Shown here in pieces: positions 1 through 36,977 of a stretch of 36,977 bases of DNA (position 1 is the stretch's first letter; each line of letters begins with the position of its first letter). The stretch comes from a virus: positions 1-36,977 of IMG/VR virus record IMGVR_UViG_3300025012_000204; one strand, given 5' to 3'. A program made the position numbers and the translations under genes. The notes below the pieces were generated by a model. That model saw nothing but the letters and a program-made list of their open reading frames with translations. It was not told the origin of the DNA and did no database searches.

Positions 1-146
1 TCTTTACATAAGATTTTTTAAGGTCTATAGTTGAGGGTCTAGTCGTCCCAGTTCAAACCTTTTTGGCGACTCAAAATAACTGAAAAAGGGCCACACTCAA
101 ACTCAAGCGAAAGCAGAGGGGTGGATTAGGCACTCCACAACTAAAA
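1..146. repeat. Terminal repeat, left copy
   Basis: Bases 1-146 recur at 36832-36977 in direct orientation with a single difference (A at 20, G at 36851). Bases 21-146 match exactly, a run of 126. The match runs to both ends of the window, as expected when a circular or terminally redundant genome is written out linearly, giving a unit of about 36,831 bp. The exact run of 126 is also what a de Bruijn assembler with k near 127 leaves at a closed circle, so a genuine packaged repeat is not proven. Confidence 0.9.
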
Positions 147-202
147 AACCGCCAATGACGATTGACGGCTTTTATACCCTTGCGGGCAATGTCCCAGTTC
201 AA
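45..202. repeat. 12-bp direct repeat GTCCCAGTTCAA (45-56 and 191-202)
   Basis: GTCCCAGTTCAA occurs at 45-56 and again at 191-202. On the minus strand the right-hand copy reads TTGAACTGGGAC and begins at the predicted start of transcription of the leftward promoter (about 201). The other copy lies beyond the terminator. It may be a regulator or antitermination site. Chance recurrence is possible for 12 bases in a short region, but two copies flanking a terminator are suggestive. Confidence 0.5.
141..170 (-). terminator. Intrinsic terminator, leftward
   Basis: Read on the minus strand, CCGTCAAT (168-161), loop CGTC, ATTGGCGG (156-149) forms an 8-bp stem with one U-G wobble, followed directly by TTTTTT (148-143). 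On the plus strand the same arms leave a C-A mismatch, so the minus direction is favoured. No minus-strand gene ends here. The only transcript it can stop is one begun at the promoter at 208-236, giving an RNA of about 55-60 nt. Confidence 0.75.
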
Positions 203-207
203 GGTTT

Positions 208-236
208 AGTATGGAGTGTGCCTCGTTCACTGTCAA
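208..236 (-). promoter_or_regulatory. Leftward promoter (candidate late promoter)
   Basis: On the minus strand TTGACA (236-231) and CATACT (213-208) are 17 bases apart, a good sigma-70-type match (6/6 and 4/6). Transcription would start near 201 and run left through a GNRA-capped hairpin (188-175) and the terminator at 145-168, then across the genome junction to the GTG at 36710. The arrangement resembles lambda pR' followed by tR', but no antiterminator gene is recognised. Confidence 0.6.
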
Positions 237-328
237 GCTATTTCTTTATTACCAGTACCAGCCTAAATCTATAGCTCAAGTCAGAAGGGTGATTAGATTT
301 TTAACAATCATAGGCATAAAATAAAATT

Positions 329-637
329 ATGGTTAAGGAGAGATTACCAAAAGAGCTATTCGAGGGTTTAGACGATGATGATATTACCGAGAGAGTTGCT
401 AGGATCGGTCGCTTCTTAATTCTTGAGGAAATGGGTTACTTTGGTGAACAGAGCAATATAATACTAGCTTTAGCTGACGATGAGGGTAGCTGGGTAGCCC
501 AAGTCCGTAGGCGTTTTAGTAATACCTATGGTGATGTAGCTGGTTGTCATCCGGCTGATTTAGAAGTGGCCGCCGAAATGCTGGGCGTCTTTGATGATGT
601 TTATAATGTTGAGGCATTAAAAAACGATGGAGCGTGA
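329..637 (+). CDS. Hypothetical acidic phage protein
   Basis: First gene of the rightward arm, 102 residues, rich in Asp/Glu, not matched to any family I recognise. It has no membrane segment or cysteine cluster. The start is awkward: there is no Shine-Dalgarno site before the ATG, and an AAGGAG sits just after it (335-340) with no start codon at a proper distance. The message may be nearly leaderless, since an AT-rich TAAAAT lies immediately upstream. It overlaps the next gene by 11 bases, so the two are probably cotranslated. Expected role: an early host-interaction or regulatory protein, by position only. Confidence 0.6.
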   Translation: MVKERLPKELFEGLDDDDITERVARIGRFLILEEMGYFGEQSNIILALADDEGSWVAQVRRRFSNTYGDVAGCHPADLEVAAEMLGVFDDVYNVEALKNDGA

Positions 638-830
638 GCGGGTTGACTTTCCTAGAGAGTACCAGTTCCGACCAGAACTTCGATTGTGTTGGCGTGGTTT
701 GGCGATCAGTATATCCGAGGGCTTTATGACGCGTGCCGCGGGTATTGAATTATTAAGGACATTAGACGAGCAAAACCCACTACCACCCGACCAGCACGAC
801 GTTGGCCCGGACGGCAACCTAGCGGCATAA
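627..830 (+). CDS. Hypothetical small phage protein
   Basis: 67 residues, starting inside the end of the preceding gene (11-base overlap) and ending just before a structured non-coding stretch. The N-terminal half is basic (many Arg) and the C-terminal tail is acidic and proline-rich. I recognise no domain. The GAGG about 12 bases upstream is a weak ribosome-binding site, and coupling to the upstream gene is the more likely route. It is probably real because it continues the tight coding layout of the arm and the opposite-strand frames here lack initiation signals. Confidence 0.5.
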   Translation: MERERVDFPREYQFRPELRLCWRGLAISISEGFMTRAAGIELLRTLDEQNPLPPDQHDVGPDGNLAA

Positions 831-835
831 AAATA

Positions 836-895
836 AACTGACGTGGCGAGTGCCGAGAGCTTACTCTGCACCCGCCGGCCGAAGCCTTGTCAGTT
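836..895 (+). ncRNA. Candidate structured RNA, three-way junction
   Basis: The 60 bases fold by eye into three stems. The outer stem is AACTGAC (836-842) with GTCAGTT (889-895), 7 bp. The long arm pairs GGCG, GTGC and AGAG with CTCT, GCAC and CGCC around a CTTA loop, with one A-C mismatch and a 2-nt bulge. A short arm is GGC-CGAA-GCC. It lies in the gap after the gene at 627-830 and upstream of the promoter at 937. A run of five T follows about 8 bases later, so a termination role is possible. It matches no riboswitch or ribozyme core that I can recall; a hammerhead was considered and excluded. Confidence 0.45.
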
Positions 896-936
896 GTACG
901 TCTATTTTTACATAACACCGAAGTGAAAACAAGCCC

Positions 937-965
937 TTGACACGATATAAGCAAGAGCGTAGTAT
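937..965 (+). promoter_or_regulatory. Promoter P1
   Basis: TTGACA (937-942), 17-base spacer, TAGTAT (960-965). The bases before the -10 read CAAGAGCG, as they do in the promoter at 1781-1810. The leader includes a hairpin (TGGGTC/GACCCA arms around 970-990) and AAGGAG (1003-1008) eight bases before the ATG at 1017. The leader string AAGGAGAGCTAAAA recurs before the starts at 1846 and 6085. Confidence 0.75.
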
Positions 966-1016
966 GAGGTTGGGGTCGCTCAAAAAGACCCATAAAAAAT
1001 CTAAGGAGAGCTAAAA

Positions 1017-1262
1017 ATGAGTACTGCAATCGCAGTCAAAGAGTACAACACCGCCGAGTTCGCAATGAACGAAGACGGAGTATTTTTATGCACGCACCCT
1101 GACGCCTACATCGACCAAACCTGTTGCTCGCCGTTTCAAGTTGGCGAGAGCGGCCACGTTGAGTGTGGGTGCGGCGGCGTTGACAGTGTGGTATGCCCGG
1201 CGATCGACTGTACCGGGATTGAAGACCACGAAGTCGATCAACTATTTGAAAGGCTAGGATAA
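1017..1262 (+). CDS. Cysteine-rich hypothetical protein, possibly zinc-binding
   Basis: 81 residues with a strong ribosome-binding site (AAGGAG, spacing 8) and a clear promoter upstream. The middle holds a dense cysteine cluster: CTH, a CC pair, a CGCGG block, then two more cysteines five residues apart, ending in an acidic helix-like tail. Such spacing fits metal binding or a redox role, but I recognise no family. The stop overlaps the next ATG (TAATG), so a 33-residue membrane peptide is translationally coupled to it. It heads the transcription unit that leads into the recombination genes. Confidence 0.7.
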   Translation: MSTAIAVKEYNTAEFAMNEDGVFLCTHPDAYIDQTCCSPFQVGESGHVECGCGGVDSVVCPAIDCTGIEDHEVDQLFERLG

Positions 1263-1363
1263 TGAAAAAATGGTTGTTTTACGCACTTATAGTCATCGAT
1301 GTTATAGTAGTTTACTCAATTATCGAGCGGCCAGACTTATTGATTGGCGGGCTAAATAAATGA
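1262..1363 (+). CDS. Small single-pass membrane protein, 33 residues
   Basis: A short ORF that begins within the stop of the previous gene (TAATG) and ends in an ATGA overlap with the next. It encodes MKKWLFYALIVIDVIVVYSI and then a polar tail (33 residues in all): a lysine pair, one hydrophobic helix of about 18 residues and a short soluble end. Start and stop are both coupled to neighbours with no free space, which supports a real gene despite its length. It could be a lysis-inhibition, superinfection-exclusion or other membrane-modulating peptide; function unknown. Confidence 0.6.
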   Translation: MKKWLFYALIVIDVIVVYSIIERPDLLIGGLNK

Positions 1364-2493
1364 GCTACTTTTACGTTGACGGCGCCTACGAGGCGCGCGG
1401 GCCCATCGGAGCGTACTGTATCGTCTCCGTGCTGGGCGAGAAGCCGCCGACGTGGGAGATAACCCGACTCGAACCGCAGGAAGCCTCACAAGTCGAGTTT
1501 ATAGGTCTACAGGCCGCTATTAAGCTCGCGTCTAGCAATCTACCAGCTAAAGTCTTTTCAGACAGCGTGTGGGCTATAAAACGCCTCAGCGACTATGCCA
1601 AGCGGCTCGATGTTGAGCTTAAGCACGTGCCGGGCCACCTCACAACTCGTAACGATATAGATATGACGGATGACGTCAAAAAACACCACTGGGCGCACGT
1701 TCAAGCCTACCATTTCGTGCAAAATATCGCCCGCGACCTGAATGACAGCCACAACAAAATAAAGGGAATTGAAAATCTACTTGACAAGAAAATAAACAAG
1801 AGCGTACAATCTAAGAGTAAAACAACTAAAGAAGGAGAGCTAAAAATGTCAAGTAAAAGGGTCAAAACGACCAAAATCGAAAAGCAATATACTGATAAAA
1901 AAACTGGTGAAAAAAAGACTATTACCATCGACTACGCCAAAGTCATCGACCGCGTCAACGAGTTTCGCGGAGACAACCCCCGCGGCACAATTAAAACCGA
2001 AATGAAAGTCGTTGATGATTTGGCCACGTTCAGCGCCTACGTTAAAAAAGATAACGCCGACGAGTTTTCAGCCGTCGCCACCGGCCACGCCGTTGCTAAA
2101 GTCGACTTCGGCGAAAAACAGTTTGAGAAGTTAGAGACCGTCGCTGTTGGCCGGGCGCTGGCAATGCTAGGCTACGCTTCAAGCGGTGAGATTGCCAGCT
2201 TTGAAGAAATGGAAGAGTTTACCGCCTACCGCGACCAGAAAATCGAAGAGATTATCGAGAATATAAACGGGTGCCACAACATCCCGGCCCTACGCACCTA
2301 TTTTATGGGGCTAGAAGGCTATATGGCCGAGAGCCGAGTTGTAGCCGCCAAAGATAAGCGCAAGGCTGAACTAATGGAAACTGCTAAAACTCCGCCAGCC
2401 ACGCCACCACAAACAACCAAAAGTGGTGCCGTTAAGCCTGCACCCCACCAAGTTAGTAAACCGACCCAGCCGAAAAAGGTGGCCTCACAATGA
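1360..2493 (+). CDS. RNase H-like domain fused in frame to single-strand annealing protein
   Basis: A 377-residue open frame with two parts. Residues 1 to about 125 look like type-I RNase H: a first strand with YVDGAY (D7), an E in VEFIGLQAAI (E46), FSDS (D68) and a VPGH block (H93) followed by acidic residues. Residues 163-377 are the annealing protein described at 1846. The join (about 126-162) is lysine-rich and its DNA carries a full promoter and ribosome-binding site, so the annealing protein can be made alone. The long form would be a fusion. The start ATG overlaps the previous stop (ATGA). RNase H activity could remove RNA from hybrids during recombination-dependent replication. A lost stop codon or a sequence error at the join is the main alternative. 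Confidence 0.65.
   Translation: MSYFYVDGAYEARGPIGAYCIVSVLGEKPPTWEITRLEPQEASQVEFIGLQAAIKLASSNLPAKVFSDSVWAIKRLSDYAKRLDVELKHVPGHLTTRNDIDMTDDVKKHHWAHVQAYHFVQNIARDLNDSHNKIKGIENLLDKKINKSVQSKSKTTKEGELKMSSKRVKTTKIEKQYTDKKTGEKKTITIDYAKVIDRVNEFRGDNPRGTIKTEMKVVDDLATFSAYVKKDNADEFSAVATGHAVAKVDFGEKQFEKLETVAVGRALAMLGYASSGEIASFEEMEEFTAYRDQKIEEIIENINGCHNIPALRTYFMGLEGYMAESRVVAAKDKRKAELMETAKTPPATPPQTTKSGAVKPAPHQVSKPTQPKKVASQ
1781..1810 (+). promoter_or_regulatory. Promoter P2, internal to the RNase H/annealing-protein ORF
   Basis: TTGACA (1781-1786), 18-base spacer, TACAAT (1805-1810), inside the open frame that starts at 1360. The bases before the -10 (CAAGAGCG) match promoter P1. AAGGAG (1832-1837) lies eight bases before an in-frame ATG at 1846, in the shared leader AAGGAGAGCTAAAA. 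This is as strong an initiation signal as any in the window and argues for independent expression of the downstream half. Confidence 0.75.
1846..2493 (+). CDS. Single-strand DNA annealing protein (ERF/Rad52-like), internal start
   Basis: 215 residues from an internal ATG in the frame of the ORF at 1360. The core block EKLETVAVGRALAMLGY resembles the ETSAxGRAL signature of phage ERF-like annealing proteins, preceded by a beta-rich stretch (FSAYVKKDNADEFSAVATGH) and followed by an acidic helix and a Pro/Lys-rich tail. Such proteins anneal complementary strands and work with a 5'-3' exonuclease, and the next gene is a YqaJ-type exonuclease overlapping by ATGA. Together they form a Red-like recombination pair, likely needed for genome circularisation or concatemers in a phage without its own polymerase. 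The family assignment rests on the motif and the neighbour. Confidence 0.65.
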   Translation: MSSKRVKTTKIEKQYTDKKTGEKKTITIDYAKVIDRVNEFRGDNPRGTIKTEMKVVDDLATFSAYVKKDNADEFSAVATGHAVAKVDFGEKQFEKLETVAVGRALAMLGYASSGEIASFEEMEEFTAYRDQKIEEIIENINGCHNIPALRTYFMGLEGYMAESRVVAAKDKRKAELMETAKTPPATPPQTTKSGAVKPAPHQVSKPTQPKKVASQ

Positions 2494-3233
2494 AAATAGT
2501 AGACTTACGTCAAACATCGCCGCAGTGGCACGAGTTCCGCAAAGGTAAAGTTACCGGCACCCGGCTCGGGGAGATATGGGCCGCGCGGCAGTACACCAAA
2601 GACGATCTAGTTAAGCTGTTCGAGAGCAAAAAAGTAGAGTTTAAGAAGTCAGCTAAAAAAGCCGACTTGGAATTGTTGCTCAATGACGAAGACAAGGCTG
2701 TACTAGCCTCTCAAGCCGAGAAAAAGCTAGAGTTCTACCAGTTAATCGCTGACTACTTAGCTGTCGACCGCGACGACGAAAATCGTATGGACAGGGGCTT
2801 ACGCCTCGAAGACGAGGCCGCTCAAGCCTTCGCCAAAAAGTACAAGAAAAAGCTCGAAGTGGTTGGTTGTTGCGTCTCTGACGCTGATCAGCGCATAATC
2901 AACAGCCCGGACAGGCTCATAACACCTAAGAAGGCCGGCGAGTACACCGAAGCTGTCGAGATTAAGTGCCTAAAGTCCGCCCTACACTTGCAGGCCGCCA
3001 TCGAAAATAAGATACCGGAAGAGTATTTTACCCAAAAAATACAGTATTTTGTGGTCAATGAAAAACTGCAAACGCTGTACTGGGTGTTCTACGATCCGGC
3101 TATCCCATCACTGCCAATGCACGTAATAGTAGTAACGCGCAAAGAGCTCGGCGACTGGCCGGAGATTATGCTCCGCTTCCAGTTAGCCCAGCTTAAGGAA
3201 ATGGACAGCGTGCTAGAAAAGTTGGCGTTCTAA
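2490..3233 (+). CDS. YqaJ-type viral recombinase / lambda-exonuclease-like nuclease
   Basis: 247 residues. Visible motifs: the N-terminal WHEFRKGKVTGTRLGE block, E107 in GLRLEDEA, D141 in SPDRL, the E157-x-K159 pair in AVEIKC, and the Q182/Q185 motif YFTQKIQYF. All are hallmarks of the YqaJ/lambda exonuclease branch of the PD-(D/E)XK fold. It would degrade 5' ends to leave single strands for the annealing protein encoded just upstream (ATGA overlap). Unusual is a charged insert of about 35 residues (34-70) that reads like a helix-extension-helix (SAP/HeH) DNA-binding motif, ending KKADLELLL. The stop overlaps the next start (TAATG). Confidence 0.85.
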   Translation: MKIVDLRQTSPQWHEFRKGKVTGTRLGEIWAARQYTKDDLVKLFESKKVEFKKSAKKADLELLLNDEDKAVLASQAEKKLEFYQLIADYLAVDRDDENRMDRGLRLEDEAAQAFAKKYKKKLEVVGCCVSDADQRIINSPDRLITPKKAGEYTEAVEIKCLKSALHLQAAIENKIPEEYFTQKIQYFVVNEKLQTLYWVFYDPAIPSLPMHVIVVTRKELGDWPEIMLRFQLAQLKEMDSVLEKLAF

Positions 3234-3589
3234 TGAAAGCTAAACGGCCCCGCATATTCCAAGTGCCGGCAATACTGGACGGCGTCAGCCCGCTAAAAGA
3301 CGGCGGTATGAGCCTGCGCTTCCACAGCCAAGAGATAACTACCTACAACAAAACCAAGCTGTTGAACTTCTATCAAGTCTTCGGCTGGCTCCAATTTAGC
3401 GATCACGAAATTAACATACTGCCGGGCAATGCGCCGGTGCGCGAGACTGGGGCTAGAACGCCCTCACAGCGACTACGAGGGGCTATTATGGTACTACACA
3501 GCCAAAAGTACCCTGACATTCCGGCAGAAGTTTTTTACGAGCAAACTATGGAAAAAATTATAGGTCGGGTAAAAGAGGAACTGACGTGA
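3233..3589 (+). CDS. Conserved phage protein of recombination modules, function unknown
   Basis: 118 residues, coupled to the exonuclease by a TAATG overlap. The C-terminal half has TPSQRLRGAIMVLHSQ and then EVFYEQTMEKIIGRVKEEL. This pattern is familiar from a small protein often found next to annealing-protein and exonuclease genes in phages, where it also begins with a statement-like strand pair (ILDGVSPLKDGGMSLRFHSQE). No catalytic motif is evident. Its position suggests an accessory role in recombination or replication. The family memory is mine and unverified. Confidence 0.6.
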   Translation: MKAKRPRIFQVPAILDGVSPLKDGGMSLRFHSQEITTYNKTKLLNFYQVFGWLQFSDHEINILPGNAPVRETGARTPSQRLRGAIMVLHSQKYPDIPAEVFYEQTMEKIIGRVKEELT

Positions 3590-4119
3590 TTAAAAAAATA
3601 TGCCTGAATTGTAACTCGGTATTTTCCGTGCACCCATCTCTTATCAGAGTGAAGCATTGCTCAAAAGAATGTTACTGGGCGCGAAAAACAGGCTCTAGCC
3701 GGCCTGAAAGTGTAAAACTGAAAATTAGCGCCACAATGAAGCGTAAGGGTCTTCACGGGCCAATCAGGTGTGGCTCGGACAGTAATTTTTGGTGTGGTGG
3801 CCGGAGCTTGCTAAAAAGCCTACGCCAGCAGTTGATGATGAGGGCTGAATATAAGAACTGGCGGAAAGCTGTTTTTGAGCGAGACAATTATACTTGTACT
3901 AACTGCGGGGCAACCGGCATTAAATTAAACGCCGACCACTCTCCGTTCGCTTACTCTGTTATAGTGAACTGGTTTAATGGAATTAAGTCGGTCGAAGACC
4001 TACTAAAAATCGAGTTCCTTTTTGATGTAGAGAACGGCCAGACATTGTGCGAGCCGTGCCATTGGCAATTTGGCAACAAAAATTGGATTAGGAGTAGCTA
4101 TGCACCCCAGAACGCTTAA
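3586..4119 (+). CDS. HNH endonuclease with N-terminal zinc ribbon (homing type)
   Basis: 177 residues from a GTG start overlapping the previous stop (GTGA). The N-terminus has a CLNC...HCSKEC zinc ribbon, then a Ser/Lys helix (SVKLKISATMKRKG) like the small DNA-binding modules (NUMOD type) of phage homing enzymes. The C-terminal half carries the HNH core: YTCTNCG, the ADHS catalytic block and TLCEPCH. The fold predicts a metal-dependent double-strand nickase or endonuclease. It is free-standing between recombination-module genes, as homing endonucleases commonly are. A role in replication or packaging is less likely because a packaging HNH normally sits beside TerL. Confidence 0.85.
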   Translation: MIKKICLNCNSVFSVHPSLIRVKHCSKECYWARKTGSSRPESVKLKISATMKRKGLHGPIRCGSDSNFWCGGRSLLKSLRQQLMMRAEYKNWRKAVFERDNYTCTNCGATGIKLNADHSPFAYSVIVNWFNGIKSVEDLLKIEFLFDVENGQTLCEPCHWQFGNKNWIRSSYAPQNA

Positions 4120-4525
4120 AGCAAAAGTAGAGCGCGTGCTCAAAGACTACCCAGAGACAAGAGATAGCGACATCAAACTGCGACAACAGATAATTCGCAA
4201 CTACTACCGCAATAGGATTACTTATGTGGGTAACGAAGAAGCCTTATTATTCCGAGATGAGTTCGATGTACCAACCCAAGAGCCAGTCAAACGATGGCGG
4301 GCCAAGTTTCAGAACGAGTTTAACGAGTACCTACCGACCGACTGGAAGGTGGCCAAACAGCGCGGCATTGAGCGCAAGAAGTGGGAAGAGGCGCTAGGCT
4401 ACAGCCGTGACCCAGCAGTTGTGCGCGAACAAAAGCAGATGATCTCCGAGACTCAGCCACCTAAGTTTGATGGCGAGCAAGGGGCTCTGTTCAACGTGCC
4501 ACCCAAACGGAGACTGATTATATGA
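4100..4525 (+). CDS. Conserved hypothetical phage protein
   Basis: 141 residues. I chose ATG 4100 because GGAG (4091-4094) precedes it at 5 bases; an upstream TTG at 4070 in the same frame lacks a signal and lies deeper in the HNH gene. The N-terminus (VERVLKDYPETRDSDIKL) and the block VKRWRAKFQNEFNEYLPT resemble a small basic/acidic helical protein common in phage early regions. It shows no catalytic motif. The C-terminus overlaps the next start by ATGA, giving an operon with the CAP-domain gene. Confidence 0.6.
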   Translation: MHPRTLKAKVERVLKDYPETRDSDIKLRQQIIRNYYRNRITYVGNEEALLFRDEFDVPTQEPVKRWRAKFQNEFNEYLPTDWKVAKQRGIERKKWEEALGYSRDPAVVREQKQMISETQPPKFDGEQGALFNVPPKRRLII

Positions 4526-5007
4526 AGCAGGCTTTTATTTACGGCCCGATATTGCTGATAGTGCTGTTTACCGGTTTTTTCTACGGCCGTTTTAGCTCTA
4601 CACCCAAGCCCACCGACTTTTCGGTGGCCAGCGAGCAATCACAACTCGACTACATTAACAAAATCCGCGCTGACCATAAAATACCGGCTCTGAGATACGA
4701 CGCCGGCCTAGATAAAACTGCCATCCTGAAAGTCCAAGATATGATTAAGCGCCACTACTGGGCTCACACCACACCGGACGGCGAGAGATTCTACATACTT
4801 GCCGAGAAGATTCGACCCGGCCTAAAATACTATGGTGAAAATCTTGGGGAGTGTTTTAAGTCAAATGATGATTTATTTGCCGCTTACACGGCCTCAGAAG
4901 AACACCTAACAAGTATAATTGACCCACACTACAGCCTTTTTGGCGCCGCTACACTTTGGGATGACCAAAAGCACTGCTTCATTAATAGCAATGAGTTTGG
5001 CGGTTAA
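4522..5007 (+). CDS. Membrane-anchored CAP-domain protein (YkwD/SCP-like)
   Basis: 161 residues: an N-terminal hydrophobic anchor (about 5-22), a short linker, then a CAP domain. Family marks are visible in order: the helix INKIRADHKIPALRYDAGL, H82 in YWAHTTPDG, E106 in GENLGE, and E127-H128 in SEEHL, i.e. all four cavity residues of the CAP superfamily. In bacteria such domains sit outside the membrane, and their biochemical role is poorly settled. A cell-surface location after infection is expected. Phage-borne CAP genes are uncommon; superinfection exclusion or envelope remodelling are plausible but unproven. The start overlaps the previous stop (ATGA). Confidence 0.8.
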   Translation: MKQAFIYGPILLIVLFTGFFYGRFSSTPKPTDFSVASEQSQLDYINKIRADHKIPALRYDAGLDKTAILKVQDMIKRHYWAHTTPDGERFYILAEKIRPGLKYYGENLGECFKSNDDLFAAYTASEEHLTSIIDPHYSLFGAATLWDDQKHCFINSNEFGG

Positions 5008-5033
5008 TAACTAACAAGATAAGAGAGGGTAAA

Positions 5034-5351
5034 ATGGTCAGAATACTAACTAAGAAGGCTTATGAAAGCATAAAATCGCGACAACGACGACACTGGTCTA
5101 TCGAAGCAATAACTAATCACTTAGACTGGTCAGATCGTACTATTCGCCGGGTTTTCAAGAGTGCGGACTGGGCTGGGTATCGCCGGGCTAGGTGGGCCGA
5201 GAGCAGGCGTATGACTATAGCCCGCGCTGAGAGGCGTGGAGCTTTCGCCCACAGTGCCGACGGCACTACATCCGGTATTTACCACATAACCGGAGACAAG
5301 ACCGTCCGGCCAAAACACAAAGGGTTTTTCGCTCGACTGTTCGGAAAATAA
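5034..5351 (+). CDS. Helix-turn-helix DNA-binding protein
   Basis: 105 residues, strongly basic. Residues about 20-50 read as a helix-turn-helix: WSIEAITNHLDWSDRTIRRVF, with the turn between NHLDW and SDRT, followed by an Arg-rich helix and a C-terminal Lys/Phe tail. The ribosome-binding site GAGAGGG lies just upstream of the ATG. It is the only clear sequence-specific DNA-binding candidate in the early arm, so it may regulate the promoters here, but resolvase-like or structural roles are possible too. No dimerisation or effector domain is visible. Confidence 0.6.
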   Translation: MVRILTKKAYESIKSRQRRHWSIEAITNHLDWSDRTIRRVFKSADWAGYRRARWAESRRMTIARAERRGAFAHSADGTTSGIYHITGDKTVRPKHKGFFARLFGK

Positions 5352-5388
5352 CACGTATACTAAATTAACGTAAGCGGAGATTTTGAAA

Positions 5389-5718
5389 ATGCACAACTTA
5401 GAACTTGCTGGCCTGTTTGTGCTGGCGACTATCATAGCTGGTGTCGCCGCCGGCGTAATTTACGGCCTGACAACATACTTTCGAGTGCGAACGATAGGTA
5501 AACTGAATAAGACAATGGGTGGCCGCTCGTATCTTTTACTGACTGGCTCGCCAGAAGGAGTGAAGCAGGCGTATGATATTTGTATAGCCGTCCTCAACAG
5601 AGTGGAAGCAGTACAAACTAATAAAAGCGAAGCACAGATAGGCATAGCAGATGACGAACCCACCGAACCGGCACCAAGCACAGAAGAAACTACTGAAAAA
5701 AAGACACCACGATCCTAA
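5389..5718 (+). CDS. Single-pass membrane protein with acidic cytoplasmic tail
   Basis: 109 residues from ATG 5389 (GGAG at 5376-5379); a TTG two codons earlier is possible. One hydrophobic helix (about residues 6-29, GLFVLATIIAGVAAGVIYGL) is followed by a soluble part with a small globular-looking segment (GRSYLLLTGSPEGVKQAYDI) and a tail rich in Glu, Pro and Thr. I recognise no family. Residues 40-70 may be a small alpha/beta fold. The gene overlaps the next one by 68 bases in another frame. Confidence 0.55.
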   Translation: MHNLELAGLFVLATIIAGVAAGVIYGLTTYFRVRTIGKLNKTMGGRSYLLLTGSPEGVKQAYDICIAVLNRVEAVQTNKSEAQIGIADDEPTEPAPSTEETTEKKTPRS

Positions 5719-5875
5719 GTGGATGGCCGAAATCGGTGCTATGGGCGGTAGCGCGCCACACAAAGAGCCGCGCACTTTTGCCAAAAACCCGGCGTTGGCC
5801 AGCCGGGCCGGGAAAATCGGCGGCAGACTAGGCAAAAACCCTTACGGGCGAAAGGGCAAGCCGCGTGACGGCTGA
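5651..5875 (+). CDS. KGG-motif small basic protein (stress-protein-like)
   Basis: 74 residues. The middle reads DPKWMAEIGAMGGSAPH, then FAKNPALASRAGKIGGR, two Gly-Gly turns spaced like the KGG repeat of bacterial general stress proteins (YmdF and con-10-like). Those are small, hydrophilic and probably disordered. The protein is very basic, so nucleic-acid contact is possible. It starts inside the preceding gene with only a weak ribosome-binding site, and overlaps the following GTG start. A KGG protein on a phage is unusual. Confidence 0.6.
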   Translation: MTNPPNRHQAQKKLLKKRHHDPKWMAEIGAMGGSAPHKEPRTFAKNPALASRAGKIGGRLGKNPYGRKGKPRDG

Positions 5876-6038
5876 TACACCCGTAGCCAAACTTTACGTC
5901 GATTTCTATGTTTACCAATGCGGCTGCGTCTGGTCATATCGCCCACCAGAGTTTGCTAGTTTATGCGAGAACCACTTTGATGAGAAAACCGGTAGAATAA
6001 AGCACTTTGGACTTGACGCTAGTGTTTATTCGTGCTAG
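5865..6038 (+). CDS. Tiny zinc-finger-like protein, 57 residues
   Basis: A GTG-started ORF overlapping the end of the KGG gene by 11 bases. It encodes CGC in a strand context (YQCGCVWSYRPP) and, eleven residues later, LCENH: a C-x-C...C-x-x-H set typical of very small zinc-binding phage proteins. The tight overlap and the intact metal-ligand set argue for a real gene. The stop codon TAG is the first half of the -10 box of the next promoter (6036-6041). Function unknown; nucleic-acid or protein binding is likely. Confidence 0.6.
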   Translation: MTADTPVAKLYVDFYVYQCGCVWSYRPPEFASLCENHFDEKTGRIKHFGLDASVYSC

Positions 6039-6041
6039 TAT
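6013..6041 (+). promoter_or_regulatory. Promoter P3
   Basis: TTGACG (6013-6018), 17-base spacer, TAGTAT (6036-6041). The spacer is nearly the same as that of the antisense promoter at 19761-19790, sharing the strings TGTTTATT and CGTGC. AAGGAG (6072-6077) precedes the ATG at 6085 within the leader string also seen at 1003 and 1832. It drives the small membrane protein and probably the lysin. Confidence 0.75.
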
Positions 6042-6084
6042 GGGTAGGCTTGGCCATTAAGACAAGCGTAAAAGGAGAGCTAAA

Positions 6085-6330
6085 ATGAAGAGTATAAAAA
6101 CTCCCGGTACTCCCAAAAACAATGTAAACAAGGCTGATCGAGCACGACAACTGCTTACACCAGTTATCGACAAAATTGCTCAATTAGTTGGCGTAGGCTT
6201 TATACTGGCCACCAGTTACGGTTTTACGCACGATTGGTTGAAGAACCATCAGCTTAACCACGACTACAGCGTGGCCGGCGGCATTATGGTCGTCAGCATT
6301 GCTTTGTACCTAGTCGTTCGCAAGCGCTAG
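6085..6330 (+). CDS. Two-helix membrane protein, holin candidate
   Basis: 81 residues with a basic N-terminus, then two hydrophobic segments (about 34-52 and 61-78) split by a short polar loop with His and Asn, and a KR end. Size, topology and position directly before a secreted lysin suggest a class II holin. It has its own promoter and one of the best ribosome-binding sites in the window. However, a second set of holin-like genes lies in the late arm, so this one may act earlier or be a membrane protein of another kind. Confidence 0.55.
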   Translation: MKSIKTPGTPKNNVNKADRARQLLTPVIDKIAQLVGVGFILATSYGFTHDWLKNHQLNHDYSVAGGIMVVSIALYLVVRKR

Positions 6331-6339
6331 TGTATAATA

Positions 6340-6386
6340 GGAAGGTTACGCTTTTTACCAACTGCGACTGTCTGCGTAACACACAA
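6340..6386 (+). promoter_or_regulatory. Leader hairpin before the lysin start, possible split ribosome-binding site
   Basis: GTTACGC (6345-6351) and GCGTAAC (6374-6380) form a 7-bp inverted repeat with a 22-nt loop ending five bases before the ATG at 6386. There is no Shine-Dalgarno site between hairpin and ATG, but GGAAGG (6340-6345) lies just upstream of the stem. If the hairpin forms, the ribosome-binding site is brought close to the start, as reported for some phage T4 genes. A TATAAT at 6333-6338 may be a -10 box, though its -35 is poor. Confidence 0.5.
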
Positions 6387-6880
6387 TGAAGCAATTTCTA
6401 GGTTGTTTAATCTCAGTTTCACTTGTCGTATTTGGTTTGTCTGTGGCCCAAGCCACTCCGACGCCTTTTAAGGCTCTACAAGGCCCGAAAGTCGTCAAAG
6501 TGGGTGTATCGTCAGCCACTTACGTAAAACCCGACCCACCGCCACCAGTGCGGGCTATCCGCCAACCCGGCGACTGTAACAAGTGGCGGTCGGTCATCGC
6601 TCAGTATGATTGGAATGTTGACGTGGCCGTCAATGTCTGCAACGCCGAAAGTGGTGGCGACCCCAATAATGATAATCCAAACGACCGACATCCTAGTTAT
6701 GGCTTGTTGGTCTGTTACGGCTCACGCGGGCTGTTCCAAATAGGCTGCGACAGCACCTCTAACTACGCCGGGATGTTCAACCCCTATACCAACATCGCTG
6801 AAGCCTATGCCAAGTATAAAGCGCGGGGCTGGTCGCCGTGGGGCTACACTACTTGTCGCTATAAGGTAGTATGTTACTAA
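6386..6880 (+). CDS. Secreted lysozyme-like (transglycosylase-type) endolysin
   Basis: 164 residues. The N-terminus is a Sec signal peptide (MKQFLGCLISVSLVVFGLSV, with AQA as a likely cleavage site), then a proline-rich linker and a lysozyme-fold domain. Catalytic and fold marks: E88 in CNAESGGDPNN, SRGLFQIG, and NIAEAYAKYKARGWSPWG. These match the soluble lytic transglycosylase/lysozyme-like families that cut glycan strands. Several cysteines (64, 85, 110, 121, 157, 163) suggest disulfides formed outside the membrane. Being exported by the host, it would not need a holin for release. It lacks a normal ribosome-binding site (see the leader hairpin). Confidence 0.8.
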   Translation: MKQFLGCLISVSLVVFGLSVAQATPTPFKALQGPKVVKVGVSSATYVKPDPPPPVRAIRQPGDCNKWRSVIAQYDWNVDVAVNVCNAESGGDPNNDNPNDRHPSYGLLVCYGSRGLFQIGCDSTSNYAGMFNPYTNIAEAYAKYKARGWSPWGYTTCRYKVVCY

Positions 6881-36831: not shown

Positions 36832-36977
36832 TCTTTACATAAGATTTTTTGAGGTCTATAGTTGAGGGTCTAGTCGTCCCAGTTCAAACCTTTTTGGCGA
36901 CTCAAAATAACTGAAAAAGGGCCACACTCAAACTCAAGCGAAAGCAGAGGGGTGGATTAGGCACTCCACAACTAAAA
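36832..36977. repeat. Terminal repeat, right copy
   Basis: Right copy of the 146-base terminal overlap, identical to 1-146 except G at 36851 for A at 20. It runs to the last base of the window. The control region therefore continues into 147-328 on the closed map. It contains no gene. Confidence 0.9.

Follow-up and report, generated by a model that had tools for sequence, protein, structure and literature searches.

An RNase H-like gene and a predicted Rad52/Sak-type annealing gene in one open frame of a virus genome, most likely two adjacent early genes with an incidental read-through fusion

In IMG/VR virus record IMGVR_UViG_3300025012_000204, an RNase H-like region and a predicted single-strand annealing protein gene lie in one uninterrupted reading frame, directly upstream of an exonuclease gene. 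The window, by which we mean the whole stretch of DNA that was analysed, comprises 36,977 nucleotides (positions 1 to 36,977 of the record), and its two ends (1-146 and 36832-36977) form a direct terminal repeat of 146 bases, mismatched only at position 20 (A/G), so that the record probably represents an entire genome of about 36.8 kb. The features of the locus are as follows.

937-965, + strand: sigma-70-like promoter P1, TTGACA-17-TAGTAT
1017-1262, + strand: 81-aa Cys-rich ORF, started by a second Shine-Dalgarno/start block (1003-1019)
1262-1363, + strand: 33-codon ORF for a hydrophobic peptide, with a TAATG overlap with the preceding ORF and an ATGA overlap with ATG 1360
1360-2493, + strand: open frame with both halves, 377 codons
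1360-1746, + strand: RNase H-like domain of about 129 residues, from a match to Pfam PF00075 above the cut-off and from alignment
1747-1845, + strand: A-rich promoter-leader (32% GC, 54% A), open in the RNase H frame and forming the linker in any fusion
1781-1810, + strand: sigma-70-like promoter P2, TTGACA (1781-1786), 18-nt spacer, TACAAT (1805-1810)
1832-1848, + strand: Shine-Dalgarno/start block AAGGAGAGCTAAAAATG of the annealing gene, including ATG 1846
1846-2493, + strand: predicted Rad52/Sak-type single-strand annealing protein gene, 215 aa, phrog_11717 family
2490-3233, + strand: YqaJ/lambda-exonuclease-type nuclease gene (Pfam PF09588, 2e-17), a neighbour kept in relatives

As originally predicted, the frame stays open in the window sequence for 377 codons, from ATG 1360, which is immediately preceded by a TAA at 1357-1359, to the TGA at 2491-2493. 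Genes are packed tightly elsewhere in the operon: the 33-codon ORF overlaps the stop of the 81-aa ORF via TAATG, and the exonuclease gene (from 2490) overlaps the stop of the annealing gene by ATGA. No clear Shine-Dalgarno site was seen for ATG 1360, so that translational coupling from the 33-codon ORF is the likely way in which ribosomes would enter the RNase H-like gene. The phage had also been described as having no polymerase, which agrees with the family scans, with the qualification that many of its genes have no assignment. Two further early genes were observed, one encoding a CAP/SCP-family protein (PF00188, 4.1e-12; 4522-5007) and the other a lysozyme-like SLT_3 domain that scored below the cut-off (6386-6880).

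The RNase H-like character of the first half was supported by Pfam RNase_H (PF00075), which matched residues 4-88 of the 1360-1845 part at 5.5e-7, with 30.3 bits versus a cut-off of 25.8. BLASTP comparison of this half with a Saccharibacteria RNase H gave zero local alignments, and the RNase H assignment therefore rests on the profile. In common with RNase HI, the half exceeds the curated cut-off and contains a His-Val-Pro-Gly-His stretch together with D7, E46, and D68, which correspond to catalytic positions when two Saccharibacteria RNase H proteins are aligned with it. Unlike RNase HI, it matches only profile positions 6-83 of 141, its fourth acidic residue is placed without certainty (D99, D101, D104, and D105 lie nearby), and it is poorly modelled by AlphaFold2, with low-confidence pLDDT values of mostly 32-69 over residues 1-90 because relatives are lacking. 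A tblastn search for this half in phages returned zero matches.

Judged by its motifs, namely P2, AAGGAGAGCTAAAAATG, and its likeness to the leader at 937-1019, the segment that joins the halves is a phage promoter-leader. P2 agrees with the consensus at 11 of 12 positions, a score of 11 that dinucleotide shuffling of the leader yields in just 0.04% of cases, and the 17-base AAGGAGAGCTAAAAATG, which holds a strong Shine-Dalgarno site, recurs exactly at 1003-1019 (0.08 occurrences expected at up to 3 mismatches), so that the separate promoter, Shine-Dalgarno site, and ATG 1846 originally proposed for the annealing gene are all in place. P1 and P2 also have the block ATAARCAAGAGCGTA in common (947-961 and 1792-1806), and the alignment score of 32 between the promoter parts of the 937-1019 and joining-stretch leaders was reached by 0 of 5000 shuffles. 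These two leader units, 937-1019 and 1781-1848, both with TTGACA, ATAARCAAGAGCGTA, and AAGGAGAGCTAAAAATG, probably represent an early-promoter type of the phage or a duplication. A partial third leader copy was seen at 6057-6088, with AGGAGAGCTAAAA at 6073-6085, directly 5' of an ORF at 6085. GC content is 0.54 in the RNase H-like part and 0.32 in the leader; the first 29 codons of the annealing protein are equally A-rich (GC 0.32), so that little weight can be placed on leader composition by itself.

When 1746-1845 is shuffled, a given frame stays open in about 7% of cases, which makes the open junction unremarkable by itself. A single indel would close the frame, given the 5 and 3 stops in the two remaining frames of the 100-nt leader, and the one-base difference between the terminal-repeat copies demonstrates that single-base variation or error exists in the record. 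Both observations would fit an assembly or strain artefact, in which a stop or indel near 1746-1845 is missing from the metagenomic contig and the real genome contains two ordinary genes. We consider such an artefact unlikely, since the frame is intact over 377 codons with recognisable domains on either side.

The second half had been proposed to be an ERF/Rad52-like annealing protein. Pfam and NCBIfam gave zero matches for it, ERF/Rad52 included, and none of the profile matches of 54 relatives belonged to a Rad52/ERF/RecT family; a sequence match to such a curated family is supporting and not strictly defining for the superfamily. In PHROGs the half falls in family 11717 (1.4e-13), which is listed without function. 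The Rad52 annealase superfamily of single-strand annealing proteins (SSAPs) is characterised by a beta-hairpin and a beta-sheet bridged by an alpha-helix (PMC11783212). This fold was found in the AlphaFold2 model built with 53 relatives (mean pLDDT 88), in which strands 9-16 and 23-30, helix 33-43, strands 48-56, 59-67, and 77-85, and helix 90-110 are arranged as a beta-hairpin, a helix, a three-stranded sheet, and a long traversing helix. Counted from ATG 1846, the predicted fold starts at residue 9, and the alignment covers residues 1-116. In structural alignment, the top row was Sak of phage 80alpha (PDB 8pq8; Z 9.2, 2.5 A, 97 residues), followed by Rad52 (Z 8.6) and Mgm101 (Z 8.2); unrelated rows scored about 7. 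Z values of about 8-9 stand only a little above background, but the top rows form one coherent family. Foldseek matches in the PDB were modest (best E-value 3.2e-3, with low global TM-scores), and several matches in a viral structure library were named ERF, Rad52, or Bet.

YqaJ exonucleases are the usual partners of annealing proteins. The Rad52/Sak fold and the downstream YqaJ exonuclease together make it well supported, from the model and gene order, that the second half is a single-strand annealing protein, as had been suggested, with a distant membership in the Rad52 annealase superfamily that rests on fold and gene neighbourhood. The window protein resembles Sak/Rad52-type phage SSAPs in its predicted hairpin-helix-sheet-helix and its exonuclease neighbour, whereas it differs from them in having only about 16% identity to 80alpha Sak in the structural alignment, in lacking a Pfam Rad52/ERF match, and in belonging to PHROG 11717/23738. 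The pair is also reminiscent of lambda Red-type pairs, as the annealing gene and the YqaJ/lambda-exonuclease-type gene adjoin and overlap; unlike in those pairs, an RNase H-like gene precedes in the same frame, and neither the exonuclease nor the annealing protein belongs to the family found in lambda.

Relatives of the annealing half were collected from viral contigs and from Saccharibacteria and other MAGs. Viral contigs scanned with either half as a single protein yielded nothing, and an alignment-based query was required; this approach found 80 viral loci, a further 80 once a closer alignment served as query, and 10 genome loci, 5 of which were Saccharibacteria MAGs. The 168 homologous loci analysed correspond to about 161 distinct contigs, seven viral contigs being present twice, and 166 of them are 5'-complete. 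The original prediction could be examined by asking whether relatives have two genes or one. All 166 of the 5'-complete loci carry the annealing gene as a stand-alone gene, with a stop shortly before its start and an RNase H domain joined to it in none, so that the fused arrangement is not a conserved architecture; the open frame before the core has a median length of 18 residues and reaches 95 at most, versus 191 in the window. The closest relative (L114, 53% identity) begins MAKTSRVTKIEKSYKDKKSGEWKKIEIEYAKV, colinear with ATG 1846, and L115, L123, L126, L127, L128, and L194 likewise have an N-terminus as in the window, all seven starting at the position of ATG 1846 or within a residue or two of it. 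Stops directly precede the equivalent start in the Saccharibacteria homologues, and a YqaJ exonuclease lies directly downstream in most close relatives. Alignments of L206 and L209 that ran upstream of the start were rejected as spurious, since they cross stops.

PF00075 was not detected in the 29, 14, and 48 virus records scanned (91 in total), many of which are fragments, so that absence from each is not proof; RNase H was detected in 9 of 14 control genomes. One of two bacterial genomes in the last set had two RNase H genes, neither joined to an annealing gene, and no relative was found with both genes side by side. In 380 genomes of the Saccharibacteria-centred phylum, the annealing half only was detected, in 3 genomes. 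Searches for the annealing half in plasmids (tblastn), for 1000-2500 in phages at the DNA level, and of 1-6500 against Rfam each gave zero matches. Neither half was found in terminase relatives, where the two protein searches ran without a positive control and only L002, whose 14.8-kb contig shows zero early genes, is structurally close. Another terminase-related contig, L097, has a free-standing PF04098 Rad52 protein directly before a YqaJ exonuclease (L097:1668-2207, - strand), which shows that the slot before the exonuclease takes stand-alone annealing genes. The differing annealing genes of L097 and the window look like module swapping at one slot.

The original prediction held that one gene makes both a fusion and a separate annealing protein, and that the fusion would trim RNA and anneal strands. 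Its first part is partly sustained, in that read-through from 1360 is likely: given the open frame and the lack of any transcription terminator seen on the + strand at the junction, some 42-kDa fusion is probably made, provided that any translation of the RNase H-like gene occurs. A purposeful fusion is unsupported. In a working bifunctional protein, the RNase H domain would cut RNA in RNA-DNA hybrids and the Rad52-type domain would anneal, with a shorter annealing-only product made from the internal promoter. The frame that runs open through both domains, the three retained acidic residues, the tight packing of the operon, and the clear internal promoter and start are consistent with this proposal; the uniformly separate annealing genes of the relatives, the failure to detect RNase H in the virus records scanned, a linker that is promoter-leader by composition and common motif, and the failure to meet any such fusion in the literature searched, limited in extent, make it improbable. 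Slightly less probable is the specific dual-product scheme in which the RNase H-Rad52-type fusion clears RNA primers or R-loops at annealed strands and, with the free annealing protein, serves recombination-dependent replication. A functional fusion would combine both activities, RNA removal and strand annealing, in one protein.

Nested in-frame genes are familiar in phages, for example, C/Nu3 of lambda and A/A* of phiX174. As in those pairs, a second start inside the longer frame of the window defines a shorter protein with the same C-terminus; the long form there is a known product, whereas relatives of the window show only the short form. An annealing gene that is independent elsewhere and has its own start here, with a linker that is promoter-leader, leaves a functional fusion without support, and nothing suggests selection for it. 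As the relatives (about 160) all carry the annealing gene alone, the fusion most likely came about by accident, probably through the way in which the genes are packed, and would be a by-product.

We therefore favour, with a probability of roughly three in four, two adjacent early phage genes, with separate expression of the annealing protein from its own promoter and start codon and a read-through fusion that is most likely incidental. The promoter near 937 would drive an operon of the Cys-rich ORF, the 33-aa hydrophobic peptide, the RNase H-like gene, the annealing gene, and the exonuclease, and the annealing gene would additionally be expressed from its own signals in the leader between it and the RNase H-like gene. 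The ATG 1846 product may bind and anneal the single strands that the neighbouring YqaJ exonuclease leaves behind, in the manner of lambda Red-type pairs. Since the RNase H-like gene has no stop of its own and the leader is open, ribosomes from ATG 1360 would run on and add some 377-residue fusion as a side product. Such an arrangement probably arose through placement of an annealing gene with its promoter-leader downstream of the RNase H-like gene.

The useful result is a likely role for a family of phage and CPR-prophage proteins that is listed without function. PHROG 11717 and 23738 proteins, which occur in Saccharibacteria MAGs and many uncultured phages, resemble, from the model, annealing proteins of the Rad52 fold that are paired with YqaJ exonucleases, and recognising them as such would allow names to be given to many phage recombination modules. 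One member of the relatives' alignment carries an ExoX-like C-terminal domain (PF20600, 8e-12). In a Saccharibacteria locus (L205:976-1908), a domain that looks NUDIX-type by eye and an RNase H domain occur in one 310-residue frame.
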